NCBI GenBank assembly: GCA_029857855.1 | Contig: JAOUGG010000042.1 | Coordinates: 1-10,637 of the forward strand | Length of the DNA: 10,637 nucleotides | From: Acidimicrobiia bacterium | GTDB taxonomy: Bacteria; Actinomycetota; Acidimicrobiia; Acidimicrobiales; SZUA-35 | Direction: 5' to 3' | Shown here: positions 1 through 10,389 of the stretch, in pieces | Layout of the letters: every line of letters starts with the position of its first letter | Position numbering within the stretch: position 1 is the stretch's first letter | Made by a program: the position numbers and the translations under genes | The notes under the pieces: model-generated | Databases searched by the model: none | What the model was told of the DNA's origin: nothing | Seen by the model: the letters and a program-made list of their open reading frames with translations, nothing else

Positions 1-724
1 CCACTGCCGCGGCATCGTCGATGCTTGCGCCGCCGGCCAGAGCCTGCTCGACCGCCGAGGAGGTCATCGGGGTCGGGCCCATGTTGACCAGCGCCACGCG
101 GGCCGGATCGTTGTTCTTCGGCACGACGGCCGCCACACCGACGATCGCCCAGTCCTGGGCCCGGCGGTTGAACTTCTGATACGACCAGCCGGCGTTGGCC
201 GAGTTGGGGATCCGGATCTCGGTCATCAGCTCATCGGGGGCCAGGGCGGTTTCCAGGAAACCGGTGAACAGATCGCTTGCCGCGATCTCCCGTTCCCCGT
301 TCGGACCCTTGGCGATCACCGAACCGCCGAGGGCCAGCAGCGCCGCCGGCAGATCCGACGCCGGGTCGCCGTGGGCGATCGAGCCGCCGAGCGTTCCCTT
401 GTGCCGGACCGACGGGTCGCCGACCTGGGACGCCACATGGGCCAGCATCGGGGCCTGCGCCTTCAACAACTGGCTGGTTTCCAATGCCCGGTGGGTGGTC
501 AACGCGCCGATGGCGACGTGACCGCCCTCCTCCCGGATGTAGCTCAGATCGTCGAGGCGGCCGATGTCGATGATCACCGACGGGGTGGCCAGACGGAACT
601 TCATCAGCGGGATCAGGCTGTGACCGCCGGCCATGAGTTTGGCCTCGTCGCCGTGCTCGGTGAGCGCGGCGATCGCGGCGTCGGCCGAATCGGCCTCCAT
701 GTAGTCGAATGCGGCTGGAATCAT
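1..724 (-). CDS. coxM: CoxM-like FAD-binding medium subunit of a form II molybdenum hydroxylase (3' part off the left edge)
   Basis: This is the FAD subunit of a xanthine-oxidase-family hydroxylase. It passes electrons from the [2Fe-2S] subunit to an external acceptor, in the cytoplasm or at the membrane face. The 241 residues present cover most of the usual 280-290. The FAD-binding motifs are clear: AGGHSLIPLMKFRLA at residues 32-46 and TLGGSIAHGDPASDLPA at 111-127, both typical of CoxM and the FAD_binding_5 fold. The C-terminal CO_deh_flav_C region is only begun. The ATG overlaps the stop of the large subunit (ATGA), and a GGGAGG lies 6 bases upstream, so the start is secure and translation is probably coupled. 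It is last of three genes in the order S-L-M, the order I associate with form II clusters. The natural substrate is unknown. Confidence 0.95.
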   Translation of the reverse strand, partial: MIPAAFDYMEADSADAAIAALTEHGDEAKLMAGGHSLIPLMKFRLATPSVIIDIGRLDDLSYIREEGGHVAIGALTTHRALETSQLLKAQAPMLAHVASQVGDPSVRHKGTLGGSIAHGDPASDLPAALLALGGSVIAKGPNGEREIAASDLFTGFLETALAPDELMTEIRIPNSANAGWSYQKFNRRAQDWAIVGVAAVVPKNNDPARVALVNMGPTPMTSSAVEQALAGGASIDDAAAV

Positions 725-3117
725 GACTGGCCTCCCTTGGCGTTCTGAATTGCTTTCCAAACCCGGGCCGGCGTCGCCGGCATCGGCATGTCGTCGATGC
801 CGTAGGGGCTCAGGGCGTCGCAGATGGCGTTGATGACGGCCGCGGCCGAACCGATGGTGCCGGCCTCGCCGACCCCCTTCACCCCGAGCGGGTTCGAGGT
901 CGACGGGGTCACCGTCGACCCCAGCTTCAGGCTCGGAACCTCCATGGCCGAGGGCACCAGGTAGTCGAGGAACGACGGGTTCCGGCAGTTGCCTTCGGCG
1001 TCGTAGCTCGCACCCTCCCAGAGGGCTTGGGCCACGCCTTGGACGATGCCGCCATGAACCTGGCCCTCGACGATCAGCGGGTTGACCTGGTTGCCGCAGT
1101 CGTCGATGGCGGTGTAGTCGAGCAGCTCCACATTGCCGGTCTCCTCGTCGATCTCGACCACACACACATGGGTGCCGAAGGGGAAGGCGAAGTTGGGCGG
1201 ATCGAACGTCATCTGCTCCTGCAGGTTCGGCTCCATACCGTCGGGCAGATCGTGAGCGGTGAAGGCCCCGTAGGCCACACCCTGGATGGGCATGGTCTTG
1301 TCGGGTGACCCCTTCACCGTGAACGCACCTCCGGCGAACTCGAGATCGTCGGGGTTGGCCTCCAGTTGGTGAGCGGCGATGAGCCTGGCCTTGTCCACCA
1401 CCTTGTCGCACGCCATGGCGATGGCCACGCCGCCGACGGCCAGGGAGCGCGACCCGTAGGTGTCCATCCCGAGGGGGCTGATGGCGGTGTCGGAATGGAG
1501 GACCGTGACGTCGTCGGGATCGATGCCGAGCTTGTCGCCGACGATCTGGGACCAGGCCGTCTCATGACCCTGACCGTGCGGGGTCGAACCGGACACCACC
1601 TCGACCTTGCCGGTCGGCAGGAATCGCACGGTGGCGTGCTCCCAGCCGCCGGCGCCGTAGTTGAGACCGCCGAGAGCCCGGCTAGGGGCCAGACCGCAGA
1701 TCTCCACGTAGGTGCACAGGCCGATACCGAGATGCTTGGACTCGCCGGCGTCGCGGCGGCGTTGCTGCTCGGCCCGCAGGTCGGCGTAGCCGGCCATCTC
1801 CAGCGCGGCGTCGAGGTTCGGCGCGTAGTTGCCGGAGTCGAACACGAGGGTCGATGCCGTCTCCAGATTCTCGAACGCCTCTCCCCCGTTCAGGTAGTTG
1901 CGGCGCCGGATCTCGTCCGGGCCGACACCGACCCTGGCCGCCAGGAGATCCATGGCCCGCTCGATGGCGAAGCTGGCCTCCGGACGACCGGCGCCCCGGT
2001 AGGCGTCGGTCGGAGTCAGGTTGGTGAAGTAGCCGTCGCAGGTGAAACCGAAAGCCGGAACGTCGTAGACGCCGGTGTAGAGGAAGCTGCCGAGTAGCGG
2101 CACGCCCGGGGTGATCAGCATCATGTAGGCGCCCATGTCGGCGTCGATGTGAACCCGAACTCCGCCGATCTTGCCGTTCTCATCGGCTGCGACCTCGATC
2201 TTCTGCAGCTGGCCCCGACCCTGGTGGGTCGAGAACGCGGCCTCGGATCGGGTTTCGGTCCAGCGGACCGGACGACCGAGCCTGTGGGCCAGGGTCACCG
2301 CCAGGATCTCATCGGGGTTGATGTTGAGCTTGGCGCCGAATCCACCGCCGACGGCAGGGGCCACAACCCGGATCTTCATCTCCGGGATGCCGGTGGTGGC
2401 GGCCACCATGACCTTCAGGATGTGGGGCACCTGGGTGGCGCTGTAGAGAGTGATGTCGCCGCCGTGGGGTGACGGAACGGCGAGGACGCCGCGAGGCTCC
2501 ATCGCCGCCGGGATCAGCCGCTGCTGCTCGAATTCCGCGCTGATCACGTGAGTGGCGTTGGCGAAGGCCGCCTCCAGCGCATCGGGGTCGGGAACGAGCG
2601 GCCAGTGGTAGGCCTTATTGGAATCCAGATCCGAATGAGCGGTGGCGTCCCCGTCGCGGGCCTCGGCGATCGAGGAGACGACCGGCAGCGGCTCGTAGTC
2701 GACCACGACCTGCTCGGCAGCGTCGGCCGCGCCGTAGCGCGAGTCGGCCAGCACGAGTGCGATGATCTCACCGACGTGGTGGACCTCGCCGTTGGCCACG
2801 GGGTAGTGGGGCGGATTGACCATGTCGGCGGTCACCGGCCAGGCACAGGGCAGCGGGGCGGCCCACAGGCCCATGTCGGCGAGGTCGGCGCCGGTGTAGA
2901 CGGCGTGGACCCCGTCGGCCTCGGCCGCGGCCGACGTGTCGATCCCCGTGATCCGGGCGTGGGCCATGGTCGAACGGACCATACCCATCCAAAGCTCGCC
3001 CGGAGCGTGGATGTCGTCGACGTACTTGCCCTCACCGGTTAGGAGCTTGGGGTCTTCCTTGCGGAGCTTGCGGGTACCGATATTTGCACCGCTGGGTGCT
3101 TGTTCGGTGGTGGTCAT
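721..3117 (-). CDS. coxL: CoxL-like form II molybdopterin large subunit of an aerobic CO-dehydrogenase-type hydroxylase
   Basis: This is the catalytic subunit (798 residues, close to the usual 780-810) that binds molybdopterin cytosine dinucleotide and hydroxylates the substrate. The N-terminal a/b hammerhead domain spans about residues 15-145 and includes the LLTGEGKYVDDI stretch. The Mo-pterin domain follows with GGGFGAK (257-263), GQGHET (515-520) and GVGEAGT (748-754), whose Glu751 corresponds to the conserved active-site glutamate. The active-site loop reads AYRGAGR (372-378). True form I CO dehydrogenases carry AYxCSFR with the Cu/S-ligating cysteine, which is absent here, so CO oxidation is doubtful and another small substrate is likely. 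The ATG sits 2 bases after the small-subunit stop with GGGAGG 9 bases upstream. The gene overlaps the FAD-subunit gene by 4 bases. Confidence 0.96.
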   Translation of the reverse strand: MTTTEQAPSGANIGTRKLRKEDPKLLTGEGKYVDDIHAPGELWMGMVRSTMAHARITGIDTSAAAEADGVHAVYTGADLADMGLWAAPLPCAWPVTADMVNPPHYPVANGEVHHVGEIIALVLADSRYGAADAAEQVVVDYEPLPVVSSIAEARDGDATAHSDLDSNKAYHWPLVPDPDALEAAFANATHVISAEFEQQRLIPAAMEPRGVLAVPSPHGGDITLYSATQVPHILKVMVAATTGIPEMKIRVVAPAVGGGFGAKLNINPDEILAVTLAHRLGRPVRWTETRSEAAFSTHQGRGQLQKIEVAADENGKIGGVRVHIDADMGAYMMLITPGVPLLGSFLYTGVYDVPAFGFTCDGYFTNLTPTDAYRGAGRPEASFAIERAMDLLAARVGVGPDEIRRRNYLNGGEAFENLETASTLVFDSGNYAPNLDAALEMAGYADLRAEQQRRRDAGESKHLGIGLCTYVEICGLAPSRALGGLNYGAGGWEHATVRFLPTGKVEVVSGSTPHGQGHETAWSQIVGDKLGIDPDDVTVLHSDTAISPLGMDTYGSRSLAVGGVAIAMACDKVVDKARLIAAHQLEANPDDLEFAGGAFTVKGSPDKTMPIQGVAYGAFTAHDLPDGMEPNLQEQMTFDPPNFAFPFGTHVCVVEIDEETGNVELLDYTAIDDCGNQVNPLIVEGQVHGGIVQGVAQALWEGASYDAEGNCRNPSFLDYLVPSAMEVPSLKLGSTVTPSTSNPLGVKGVGEAGTIGSAAAVINAICDALSPYGIDDMPMPATPARVWKAIQNAKGGQS
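731..736 (-). promoter_or_regulatory. Ribosome binding site of the FAD subunit gene
   Basis: GGGAGG ends 6 bases before the ATG at 724 and lies inside the end of the large-subunit gene. It fixes the start that overlaps the previous stop codon. Confidence 0.75.
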
Positions 3118-3119
3118 GA

Positions 3120-3584
3120 TCAGCTACCTCCCTGACCGGAGGCCGACAGGACGGCCTTGACGATGTTGTGGTAGCCGGTGCAACGGCAGAGGTTGCCTTC
3201 CAGACCCTCTCGGACCTCGTGCTCGCTCGGCTTCGGGTTCTCGTTGAGCAACGACGTGGCGGCCATCACCATGCCCGGCGTGCAGTAGCCGCACTGCAGA
3301 CCGTGGCATTCCATGAACGCCTGCTGCATCGGATGCAGTTCGCCGTTCGAGGCCAGGCCCTCGATGGTGGTCACCTCGGCGCCCCGGGCTTGGACGGCCA
3401 ACATGGTGCACGACTTGACGGACTCGCCGTCGATGTGGATCGTGCACGCTCCACAGGAACTGGTGTCGCATCCGACATTGGTTCCGGTGAGCCCGAGATG
3501 ATCTCGGAGATAGTGGACGAGCAGGGTGCGTGGTTCGACGTCAGCCGACATTGCTCGACCATTCACGGTCATTTCGACCTGCAT
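3120..3584 (-). CDS. coxS: CoxS-like [2Fe-2S] small subunit of the molybdenum hydroxylase
   Basis: This is the iron-sulfur electron-transfer subunit, 154 residues against about 155-165 in the family. The N-terminal plant-type ferredoxin domain has ligands Cys39, Cys44, Cys47 and Cys59 (CDTSSCGAC and the later SC). The C-terminal helical [2Fe-2S] domain has Cys98, Cys101, Cys133 and Cys135 (QCGYCTPG and [14 protein letters not shown]). All eight ligands are present, so both clusters should form. It is the first gene of the S-L-M operon. The ATG at 3584 is preceded 4 bases upstream by AGGGGG. A second in-frame ATG four codons later is less well placed. Confidence 0.96.
3127..3132 (-). promoter_or_regulatory. 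Ribosome binding site of the large subunit gene
   Basis: GGGAGG lies 9 bases before the ATG at 3117, inside the last codons of the small-subunit gene. It supports the chosen start and tight operon translation. Confidence 0.75.
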
Positions 3585-4412: not shown

Positions 4413-5114
4413 CTACTCGGAGTCGGTGGCCGAACCCCCGGCCGTCGACTCCCAGATGGCCTGGATGGTCGACGGTTCGAGCTCGCCGGAGCTGCGTGCC
4501 ACGATGTTGTTGTCGGCGTCGACATAGAGGGCGTAGGGGAAACCACCGCCGCCGAAGAAGTTGAAGGCGTCGTTCGACGTGCTGTCCCGAATGACGGGGA
4601 CGTCGAATCCCTCACGATCGAACCAGGCAGCCGGCGGGTAGGCGCCGCCCCGGGAGGCGTCGACCGAGGTCGACACGCCGTAGATGTCGAGATTCTCGGG
4701 TTTGGCGCCCGAGTCGATCAGCTCGACGAGGCGGGGCACTTCGGCCTGGCAGTGGGGGCACCAGTGGGCCAGGAAGTAGATGACCTTGGCCCGACCGTCG
4801 TCTTCGATCACAATCTGTTCGTCGTTGAAACCGGTGCCGGTCAGCGTCGGCAACGGCTGGCCGATGGCGGCGTCGGTGCTGGGATCGGCGCTCACCCCCG
4901 ACTCGGACATCGGCAGGATGATGTTACCGTCGAGCTCGACCTCGCCGGTCTGCTCACCGTCGAAATCGACGGCATCCCGCTGGGTGGCGACGAAGGCGAT
5001 ACCGGCAAGACCGAGCACGAGGATGCCGATAATGGCGAACATGAACATCCTGTTCGACCCGGCATCGGGATTGACGGTCGGCTTCTTGGCGGAAGGGGTT
5101 TTGGTTTGAGCCAT
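4413..5114 (-). CDS. Membrane-anchored thioredoxin-fold thiol oxidoreductase (TlpA/DsbE-like, CPHC)
   Basis: This is an envelope thiol-disulfide oxidoreductase of 233 residues. A short basic cytoplasmic N-terminus is followed by one membrane anchor (about 23-43, MFMFAIIGILVLGLAGIAFVA), a linker of about 40 residues, and an AhpC/TSA-Redoxin-type thioredoxin fold (about 83-222). The active site is AHWCPHC, with Cys119 and Cys122, and the cis-proline is in GGFPYALYVD (Pro193). CPHC is the DsbA-type dipeptide, and with dsbB just upstream this points to an oxidant that DsbB re-oxidises. A reductive TlpA role remains possible. The ATG at 5114 was chosen because the longer frame (to 5291) adds a low-complexity Arg/Ser/Pro stretch overlapping dsbB. 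The gap to dsbB is 64 bases, same strand. Confidence 0.9.
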   Translation of the reverse strand: MAQTKTPSAKKPTVNPDAGSNRMFMFAIIGILVLGLAGIAFVATQRDAVDFDGEQTGEVELDGNIILPMSESGVSADPSTDAAIGQPLPTLTGTGFNDEQIVIEDDGRAKVIYFLAHWCPHCQAEVPRLVELIDSGAKPENLDIYGVSTSVDASRGGAYPPAAWFDREGFDVPVIRDSTSNDAFNFFGGGGFPYALYVDADNNIVARSSGELEPSTIQAIWESTAGGSATDSE

Positions 5115-5178
5115 GTGATTACTCTCGAATCGACTGTGGATGAGATGGATTTCGTCCGGAGAGGGTTGTTGCCCAACT

Positions 5179-5775
5179 TCAAAGGGTAGCCGCGGCGACG
5201 TCGACCGACTCCTCGGCCTCCCCTGTGTCACCGCTTTCGTGGCGGCGCCACACCGAGATCGCGGTGAGCGCGATGATGGCGGCGAAGCCACAGCCGGCCA
5301 TGGTGGGGATCGTCATGAAGCCGAAGTGGTTGACGTATTTGGTCGAGCACGGCGCCGCGGCGTCGCACAGTCCGCCGATCTCGGTACCGACCGCCTGCTC
5401 GTAGCGGTGGAAGATCGAGACGCACAGTCCGAGAACCGACAGGCCGCCGGCGAGGCGGGCCGGTGCCGTTCGCTTCGTGACCAGCGACGCGATCAGCAGG
5501 AGCGATGACGGGTACATGAACGCCCGCTGGATCCAGCAGTTGAGGCACGGAACGTAGCCGATCGCCTCAGAGAGGAGGAGTGAACCGACCATGGCCGTGG
5601 TCGCCACGGCGGCCGCCAGCTCCACCGCGACGGGACGCAGATTGGCAATCACCCGGAAGCGGTCGCCGATGAGCGCCGATACGAGAACAGAAACGGCGAT
5701 ACCGGCCGCCACCACGGCCAGCAAGGCGAAAAAGAACGTGATGGTGTTGGCCGTCGAGTACGACATGGAGCCCAA
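5179..5775 (-). CDS. dsbB: DsbB-family disulfide bond formation protein
   Basis: This integral membrane thiol oxidase takes electrons from a periplasmic thioredoxin-like partner and passes them to quinone. It has about 195-198 residues and four membrane helices. The two cysteine pairs expected for DsbB are present: PCLNC (Cys74/Cys77 counted from the ATG) after helix 2, and Cys134 and Cys140 (CDAAAPC) in the second external loop, followed by a typical GFMTIPTMAGCGF helix. The C-terminal tail is polar and acidic. An ATG lies at 5766, but GGAGGA at 5781-5786 is 5 bases from an in-frame TTG at 5775 and too far from the ATG, so the TTG is preferred. It is first of a two-gene unit with the CPHC oxidoreductase downstream. 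Confidence 0.92.
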   Translation of the reverse strand: MGSMSYSTANTITFFFALLAVVAAGIAVSVLVSALIGDRFRVIANLRPVAVELAAAVATTAMVGSLLLSEAIGYVPCLNCWIQRAFMYPSSLLLIASLVTKRTAPARLAGGLSVLGLCVSIFHRYEQAVGTEIGGLCDAAAPCSTKYVNHFGFMTIPTMAGCGFAAIIALTAISVWRRHESGDTGEAEESVDVAAATL

Positions 5776-5780
5776 GTGTA

Positions 5781-5786
5781 TCCTCC
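5781..5786 (-). promoter_or_regulatory. Ribosome binding site of dsbB that favours a TTG start
   Basis: GGAGGA lies 5 bases before TTG (5775-5773) and 14 bases before the ATG (5766-5764). It is the best ribosome site in the area, hence the TTG choice. Confidence 0.55.
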
Positions 5787-5883
5787 GACTCCCGGCAAAA
5801 CGGGGTGTTCGTCCCACGCTGCGGGTCCACCCCAAAGCGGAGCGATGGATCGAGCGCGCAGAAACCGCTCCATTGGGTGGCGA

Positions 5884-9072: not shown

Positions 9073-9920
9073 CTAGTCGGGGTCGCTTGCCGACGTCGCC
9101 CCACCGTCGGCGAGCCGTAGCAGCGTTTTGAATGCCGCCGTCACCTGGTCGAGATCGGCGGCCAGCGCGGCATCGCCGATGGCGACCTCGAATCGATGCA
9201 CCTCCGGCACATCGGTCGGCCTGAGCGCCCCGTGGAGCCACAGCCCGTGGTCGCGGGCGACCGTGTCGCGGGCCGACAGCAGCGCCTCCCGGTCGCCGAC
9301 GAGATAGACGTGGAACATGTTGACCTTCGGCGGGTCGGGGTTGATCGTGATGCCGTCGATCCCGGCCAGGGCGGCCGCCACCTCCCGAGCCCGGTCCCGA
9401 TAGCGGGGCATCTTCTCCAAGCGGTCGTCGAGACGCATGGCGGCGGAGGCCCAGTTGGCCATCATGTTGTGGAGGTTGCCACCGCTTCGCCGTTGCCAGA
9501 TCGGGCACCGTCAAGGTGGACGGCGATTCCCCGCTCCCGGGTCGAGCGGCACAGCTCGACCAGGTCATCCCACGGGGCGAGCCGGCCGCCGTTCTCACGG
9601 GTCGGGAGCTCGACGATCAACGCCGCCATTGGTTCGGATACGGCGGCAACGTCTGATGACGTCATCGCCCGCTGAGTCTCACCGACCAGGCGTGCGCTGA
9701 GGCCGTGCAGCCGGTCGTAACCTCGTTCCTCGTGGAGCTCCAGATGGCAGGTCGGATGCATACCGATCATTCCCCCACCACGCCGCTCCACCCGCTCCAG
9801 CTCAGCGGAATCCGACTCCGGTTCGCCGCCATGGAGGGGCAGACACCGTCGCCGCAACTCGTCGCGCCACTCCTTCAGCTCCGCGTTCGGATCATCGTTC
9901 ACGGCAGCAGCTATCGTCAT
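9073..9920 (-). pseudogene. Beta-eliminating lyase / threonine aldolase-type PLP enzyme, broken by two internal deletions
   Basis: The first frame (9462-9920) carries family sequence: WRDELRRRC near the N-terminus, IGMHPTCHLELHEERGY, RLHGLSARL, ALIVELPTRENGGRL and HLDGAR (135-140), whose Asp binds the PLP ring nitrogen. Immediately after HLDGAR the family sequence resumes in another frame as IWQRRSGGNLHNMMANWAS, then DPPKVNMFHVYLV, to the stop at 9073. The intervening ~70 residues, including the Schiff-base lysine (family SFYKG), are missing. A second loss of about 50-60 residues, removing the phosphate-binding SGTMAQ region, lies between residues 33 and 48. With no lysine and a frameshift it cannot be active. 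Intact relatives cleave or eliminate beta-hydroxy or beta-substituted amino acids. The ATG is 4 bases from the divergent peroxidase start and has no good ribosome site. Confidence 0.85.
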
Positions 9921-9924
9921 CGAG

Positions 9925-10389
9925 ATGTCGAGCTTTCATGACCTCACGATGCCATCGATCACCGGCGAACCTGTGTCGTTCGACCGGTTTCGGGGCCGAA
10001 CCTGCCTGATCGTCAACGTCGCCAGTCGTTGAGGCCTCACCCCTCAGTACGCAGGTCTGCGTGCCCTCCACACCAACGAACATGACGACATCACCGTCCT
10101 GGCCTTCCCCTGCAACCAGTTCGGGAATCAGGAGCCCGGCACCAACGCCGAGATTCTCGAGTTCGCCACCTCGACCTACGACGTCAACTTCCCGATGTTT
10201 ACGAAGATCGACGTCAACGGCGCCGACGAGGCTCCGCTCTACACGCTGCTGAAGTCGGCCCAACCGGGTGACGGTGACTCGTCCGACATCGCCTGGAACT
10301 TCGAGAAGTTCCTGGTCGACGCCGGCGGCAACGTCACCAACCGCTTCGCTCCCCCGGTAACCCCGGAGGAAATCGCCACCCAGCTCTGA
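9925..10389 (+). CDS. gpx: Selenocysteine-containing glutathione peroxidase (in-frame TGA at the catalytic position)
   Basis: This thiol-dependent peroxidase reduces H2O2 and organic or lipid hydroperoxides in the cytoplasm (no signal peptide). Reading through TGA 10030-10032 as Sec36 gives a full-length 154-residue GPx: TMPSITGEPVSFDRFRG, then LIVNVASR-U-GLTPQYAGL, TVLAFPCNQFGNQEPGTN, VNFPMFTKIDVNG, and IAWNFEKFLVD. The catalytic tetrad is complete as Sec36, Gln69, Trp124 and Asn125. The stop falls exactly where every family member has Cys or Sec, and all sequence on both sides is intact. The position of the second (resolving) Cys of thioredoxin-dependent GPx is Ala81 (LEFATSTY), as in one-thiol selenoenzymes. 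A SECIS-like hairpin follows. Start: ATG 9925, weak ribosome site. Automatic annotation would probably give only a C-terminal fragment from an internal ATG. The alternative is a Cys-to-stop mutation in a decaying gene. Confidence 0.85.
10030..10068 (+). promoter_or_regulatory. Bacterial SECIS element directly downstream of the Sec UGA
   Basis: GTACGCA (10047-10053) pairs with TGCGTGC (10058-10064) through seven base pairs, one of them G-U, around a GGTC loop (10054-10057). The loop starts 21 bases after the TGA, inside the 16-37 base range I recall for bacterial SECIS elements. The core GCAGGTCTGC is identical to that of the E. coli fdhF SECIS as I recall it. A lower stem GAGG (10031-10034) with CCTC (10065-10068) is possible, with a 12-base bulge. 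Part of the loop also codes for the conserved Gly-Leu, so coding constraint explains some but not all of the match. Confidence 0.75.

Follow-up and report, generated by a model that had tools for sequence, protein, structure and literature searches.

Results and discussion

The glutathione peroxidase gene and its in-frame TGA

The window, that is, the whole stretch of 10,637 nt which was analysed here, holds a gene for a glutathione peroxidase (GPx) on its forward strand. The reading frame is open from the ATG to the terminal TGA, except for a single internal TGA (Table 1). According to the initial annotation, this TGA lies exactly at the catalytic Cys/Sec position of a full-length family sequence with an intact Gln/Trp/Asn set, and our profile searches and alignments bear out all three points. 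The read-through product reaches 131.4 bits against the Pfam profile GSHPx (PF00255, gathering score 27) and covers it from position 1 to position 108 of 108. When the whole genome was searched with PF00255, the GPx locus of the window, with "1 TGA" inside, was the sole match. In the PDB alignment to yeast HYR1, for which the TGA was entered as C, the TGA slot coincides with the Cys of HYR1, and in an alignment of 12 rows it also falls on the catalytic Cys of Cys-type homologues. Across these 12 rows there is no variation at Q64, W123 and N124 (the Met not being counted). We take these residues to be the catalytic Gln/Trp/Asn set of GPx; together with the Cys/Sec slot they appear consistent with a GPx catalytic set. 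The gene is whole but for the one TGA that interrupts the frame at the catalytic Cys/Sec codon.

Table 1. Positions of the GPx gene and of its predicted recoding features in the window
Feature	Position	Strand	Remarks
Glutathione peroxidase gene, predicted Sec-type	9925..10389	+	ATG start, 154 codons + terminal TGA
In-frame TGA, most likely a selenocysteine codon	10030..10032	+	catalytic position; residue 36 counting Met
Terminal TGA, taken as the true stop	10387..10389	+	end of the GPx reading frame
Predicted SECIS-like hairpin	10047..10064	+	7-bp stem, loop GGUC (10054-10057)
Hairpin core GCAGGTCTGC	10051-10060	+	starts 18 nt after the TGA

The adjoining gene on the reverse strand (9073-9920) is threonine-aldolase-like (Beta_elim_lyase) and is split into two frames which overlap at 9462-9465; on visual inspection, the central part of the domain seems to be absent, which may reflect decay, a deletion or a fault of the assembly. 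Further away, also on the reverse strand, positions 1-3584 look by eye like a molybdenum-hydroxylase-like operon, of which the [2Fe-2S] subunit (3120-3584) was confirmed by Pfam, and positions 4413-5835 look like a DsbB-like/redoxin-like pair. A conserved neighbourhood of the GPx gene was considered and rejected. In a search of 49 loci, whose flanks extended over 1.5 to 3 kb at most, neither the threonine-aldolase-like nor the pterin-dehydratase neighbour of the window was found beside the GPx gene at any of the 48 others.

Occurrence of the TGA in Acidimicrobiales

With the window GPx protein we searched 298 genomes of the order Acidimicrobiales and obtained a match at E ≤ 1e-10 in 154 of them. 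Among the matches listed, a GPx gene with one internal TGA is present in at least 43 of the 298 genomes. The comparison of close homologues, a check that the initial annotation had suggested, placed the TGA at the catalytic codon in 30 out of 30 loci fetched from these genomes. The GPx gene of the isolate Ilumatobacter nonamiensis YM16-303 (L049; 68% identity) likewise has a TGA.

The counts of Acidimicrobiales TGA genes given below refer to 32 distinct ones, consisting of the 30 fetched loci and two further named ones, with duplicates removed (L050, L051, L053 and L067, which equal L037, L041, L043 and L036, respectively). L054 and L060 also have the TGA and come from outside the order; they were excluded from these counts. 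Among 110 loci the catalytic-codon pattern skipped L056, L057 and L097, the codons of which are TGA, TGT and TGT, and for L069 and L116, with two pattern matches each, the first one was used. A GPx match with one internal TAG was seen in a further genome (G008:C188:5662-6105), in which no tRNA-Sec match was obtained.

To describe selection on the gene, the window GPx was compared with 31 others. Downstream of the TGA, the average difference amounts to 18% at codon positions 1 and 2 and to 42% at position 3. All 31 comparisons yielded a dN/dS for this part, with a median of 0.22; upstream of the TGA the ratio was defined in 28 of the 31, and its median there is 0.32. These values point to purifying selection on both sides of the TGA.

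The TGA might be thought to stem from a nonsense mutation, or from an error in base calling, the locus then being a Cys-type GPx pseudogene. The assembly is indeed broken into 978 contigs, and the threonine-aldolase-like gene next door (9073-9920, reverse strand) is itself split over two frames. However, since so many genomes share the one-TGA gene, and at the catalytic codon in every fetched locus, in other genomes as well as in the window's own, chance or a base error does not account for it. The purifying selection on the sequence downstream of the TGA and the invariance of a hairpin at synonymous sites, described below, speak against it as well, and we regard such an origin as very improbable. 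Still less probable is that translation starts only downstream of the TGA and yields a short product in place of the full-length enzyme. Eight database models of 120 aa and three of 99 aa, among the matches listed, do start after the TGA, but the sequence before it is under purifying selection too, and a GPx that had lost its N-terminus together with the catalytic residue could not function as such.

A predicted SECIS-like hairpin downstream of the TGA

The 10-mer GCAGGTCTGC, the core of a predicted hairpin, is present 18 nt after the TGA in all 32 distinct Acidimicrobiales TGA genes. Codons +6 to +9 read TAC GCA GGT CTG in every one of them, and codon +10 is CGT in 31 genes and CGC in one. 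Nearby residues that are conserved in 29 or more of the 32 genes use two to four codons (four each for Gly +1, Thr +3 and Ala -3, three for Leu -8). At the positions which are frozen in the Sec genes, two to five codons are in use among 69 Cys genes, which come from a wider range of organisms. The identical GCAGGTCTGC occurs in Escherichia coli fdhF, at a distance of 15 nt downstream of the Sec TGA as compared with 18 nt in the window GPx. The fdhF SECIS element has a bulged U, for which the predicted window fold offers no counterpart.

When synonymous recodings of the window peptide were examined, 0.64% of them contained GCAGGTCTGC; its presence in the window alone is therefore only moderately unlikely, and the weight lies in its conservation. 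Compared to shuffled sequences, the fold is only modestly stable (z values of -0.68, -1.63 and -2.63 for a stretch of 62 nt, one of 46 nt and the 23-nt core, respectively). Because the stem hardly varies, there is no covariation to back it. A search of Rfam gave no score at the hairpin, with a sub-threshold SECIS_2 and a mir-584 match both located elsewhere. Situated closely downstream of the UGA and with a G in its short apical loop, the hairpin has the form expected of a bacterial SECIS-like element.

The same hairpin was also seen in the Pseudomonadales TGA gene L056. A gammaproteobacterial Cys-GPx gene (L057:2265-2717, codon TGT) has TACGCAGGTCTTTGT after the catalytic codon, which may be read as the fossil SECIS of a former Sec form. 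In three family genomes (L130, L131 and L133), the TGA of the SelD gene is followed by GCAGGTCGTGC or GCAGGTCCTGC, with a GPx-like loop that all three share in the form GCAGGTC[G/C]TGC. No such loop was found after the TGA of L135, a selD from the window's genus. The Sec site of selD was readable by pattern in four out of six loci; L132 and L134 were left out.

Selenocysteine machinery

The initial annotation had called the gene a probable bacterial selenoprotein and had proposed to look for selA, selB, selC (tRNA-Sec) and selD in the same genome. The source assembly (G000) has 4.39 Mb in 978 contigs and is 81% complete. It contains a tRNA-Sec (C617:7469-7560, 67.3 bits), which ARAGORN also reports as SeC with the anticodon tca, and a selB ORF of 584 aa which scores 275.5 bits against an NCBIfam cut-off of 242.25. 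This SelB matches only the model positions 2-338 of 581, and its C-terminal part, which is the one expected to bind the hairpin, is not recognised by the model. A selA gene directly adjoins selB; it is cut by the contig end, covers positions 175-454 of 455 of its profile and remains, with 254.5 bits, under the cut-off of 267.9. For selD, the 81%-complete assembly gave weak matches below the cut-off and none above it. The proposed search was hence positive for tRNA-Sec and selB, partial and below the cut-off for selA, and negative for selD.

A selD gene over the cut-off was found in 17 of the 21 family genomes searched, including the two other genomes of the window's genus in this set, and the simplest explanation for the gap in the source assembly would be its incompleteness. 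A link between selD and selA in gene order was considered and rejected. By eye, no selA is present among the ORFs of at least 150 aa around the selD of genome G191, so that the missing selD cannot be assumed to lie just past the contig end which cuts selA. Of the 17 above-cut-off SelD genes of the family, 16 have one internal TGA themselves.

Throughout the order, 176 of the 298 genomes gave a match to tRNA-Sec. This tRNA is present in 41 of the 43 listed TGA-GPx genomes versus 135 of the 255 others (Fisher p 1e-8, to be read with the caution that related genomes are not independent and that the 255 others may include further TGA genes). The two TGA-GPx genomes in which it was not found, G170 and G178, are 83% and 88% complete, respectively.

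The catalytic motif was readable in 106 of the best 120 database proteins listed, the remaining 14 being left out. These 106 comprise 81 with C, 24 with W and one with R at the catalytic place. The 24 W rows (P0002, P0005, P0008 and others) could be taken to mean that TGA is read as another amino acid such as Trp, by a changed code or by suppression, and that the product is a non-Sec protein. But seven out of nine checked ORFs of the window, GPx included, end in TGA, thus TGA serves as a stop here. The presence of tRNA-Sec and selB in the genome argues against this possibility, too, and Trp is not known to serve as a peroxidatic residue. Furthermore, the W rows resemble the Sec forms in that they are without the helix-2 Cys discussed below (0 of 24), which would fit a TGA misread as Trp. 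We give a Trp-type decoding hardly any credence; probably, the W rows arose because the gene caller of the source read TGA as Trp. Gene models would then obscure Sec-GPx in two ways, by starting after the UGA or by reading it as Trp.

We conclude that the UGA is almost certainly decoded as selenocysteine in a bacterial Sec-type GPx. Gene integrity, TGA position, hairpin conservation, the machinery genes and the missing resolving Cys are what is seen in the sequence, and the earlier call of a probable selenoprotein gains support from tRNA-Sec, selB, the TGA homologues and the conserved SECIS-like hairpin, a feature absent from that earlier call. In such a scheme, SelB carrying Sec-tRNA(Sec) would bind the hairpin, which begins 15 nt after the UGA, with its core following at 18 nt. 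Selenocysteine would be inserted at the peroxidatic position, replacing the peroxidatic Cys, and the second UGA, which ends the gene, would terminate translation normally.

Relation to known glutathione peroxidases

Bacterial Sec-type GPx (GPX-like, PF00255, motif UxxT, with WP_010957027.1 as the listed example) belongs to the same Pfam family, the predicted Sec of the window being the U of U-G-L-T. What differs is its occurrence in Acidimicrobiales with one invariant hairpin order-wide. A GPX-like selenoprotein appears among the prokaryotic selenoproteins in PMC13188914 and PMC9312934, and the terms "Actinomycetota", "Actinobacteria" and "Acidimicrobi" are absent from the main texts of both. 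In PMC1794560, 12 selenoprotein families are given for Actinobacteria and one GPx is counted, under Treponema denticola, which is listed with Gpx. PMC1088965 lists five GPx in its Sargasso Sea table, and the GPx row of the GOS table in PMC2398784 gives 40. The initial annotation had considered Sec-type GPx uncommon in bacteria. This has to be qualified, as it is included among the selenoprotein families of prokaryotes (PMC13188914, PMC1794560 and PMC1088965) and is common in Acidimicrobiales. Among the titles and abstract beginnings of the open-licence literature, no paper on selenoproteins of Acidimicrobiales or Ilumatobacter was found. As a selenoprotein family of bacteria, the Sec-type GPx is already known, and new here are its breadth in one actinobacterial order and its probable misreading in gene models.

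Vertebrate Sec-GPx (GPX1-4) are members of the same family, and an alignment of the window protein to GPX4 chains in PDB spans residues 2-147. However, the SECIS of eukaryotes lies in the 3'-UTR (PMC1088965), whereas the window hairpin is part of the coding sequence and closely follows the UGA. The best PDB match, with 145.5 bits, is yeast HYR1/Gpx3 (3cmi), a thioredoxin-type Cys-GPx. HYR1 has a catalytic Cys and the motif "QFC", whereas the window protein has "EFA" at the place of QFC. The Cys of this QFC acts as the resolving Cys.

Resolving cysteine and possible Sec/Cys exchange

A helix-2 Cys is absent from all 32 Acidimicrobiales Sec rows, window included, and from both Sec rows outside the order. 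Among the Cys rows of the genome collection it is present in 68 out of 69, in all 68 at the column of the HYR1 Cys. The window GPx hence lacks the resolving Cys in helix 2 that characterises the thioredoxin-type (2-Cys) GPx. Of the 81 Cys-type proteins among the closest database matches listed, 58 have a helix-2 Cys and 23 have none; its position is the classical column in 19 and EI[C], three residues before, in 33.

In the Sec enzyme, hydroperoxides would be reduced through a cycle of selenol and selenenic acid. As the Sec form is without a resolving Cys, direct reduction of the selenenic acid by an external thiol is most likely, in place of a route through an internal disulphide. With regard to the thiol, an MshC-like gene of at least 398 bits was found in 19 of the 21 family genomes, all of them under the NCBIfam cut-off of 485. 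One such gene, when tested, scored 433 for MshC and 350 for cysS, the latter over the cysS cut-off of 340. The window's genome gave only weaker, partial MshC matches.

On a quick tree we counted 19 Sec/Cys changes, or 15 when the W rows were omitted; in the first tree, 96 of 206 inner branches had a support below 80. Nine independent pairs were available with starred branches and with W counted as Sec. On average, the helix-2 Cys went with the catalytic Cys in 5.5 of these, against it in 0, and showed no difference in 3.5 (median p 0.03; seven pairs without the W rows, p 0.125). This is suggestive of Cys forms gaining a helix-2 Cys on Sec/Cys exchange. A wider picture, which we offer tentatively and consider rather doubtful as a whole, is that the Acidimicrobiales Sec-GPx is a one-Sec peroxidase fed by a small thiol other than glutathione, e.g. 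mycothiol. Sec and Cys would have been swapped repeatedly in this group, with the Cys forms tending to gain a resolving Cys, often as EI-C-EF, three residues before the classical site.

Sec-GPx is best known from animals, but in Acidimicrobiales it is a common gene. The gene set described here offers a named isolate, a near-invariant hairpin for studies of SelB, and mixed Sec/Cys relatives which are useful for asking why selenium is kept. If the wider picture holds true, this clade would provide a natural series of cases in which to test what the replacement of Sec by Cys demands of a protein.
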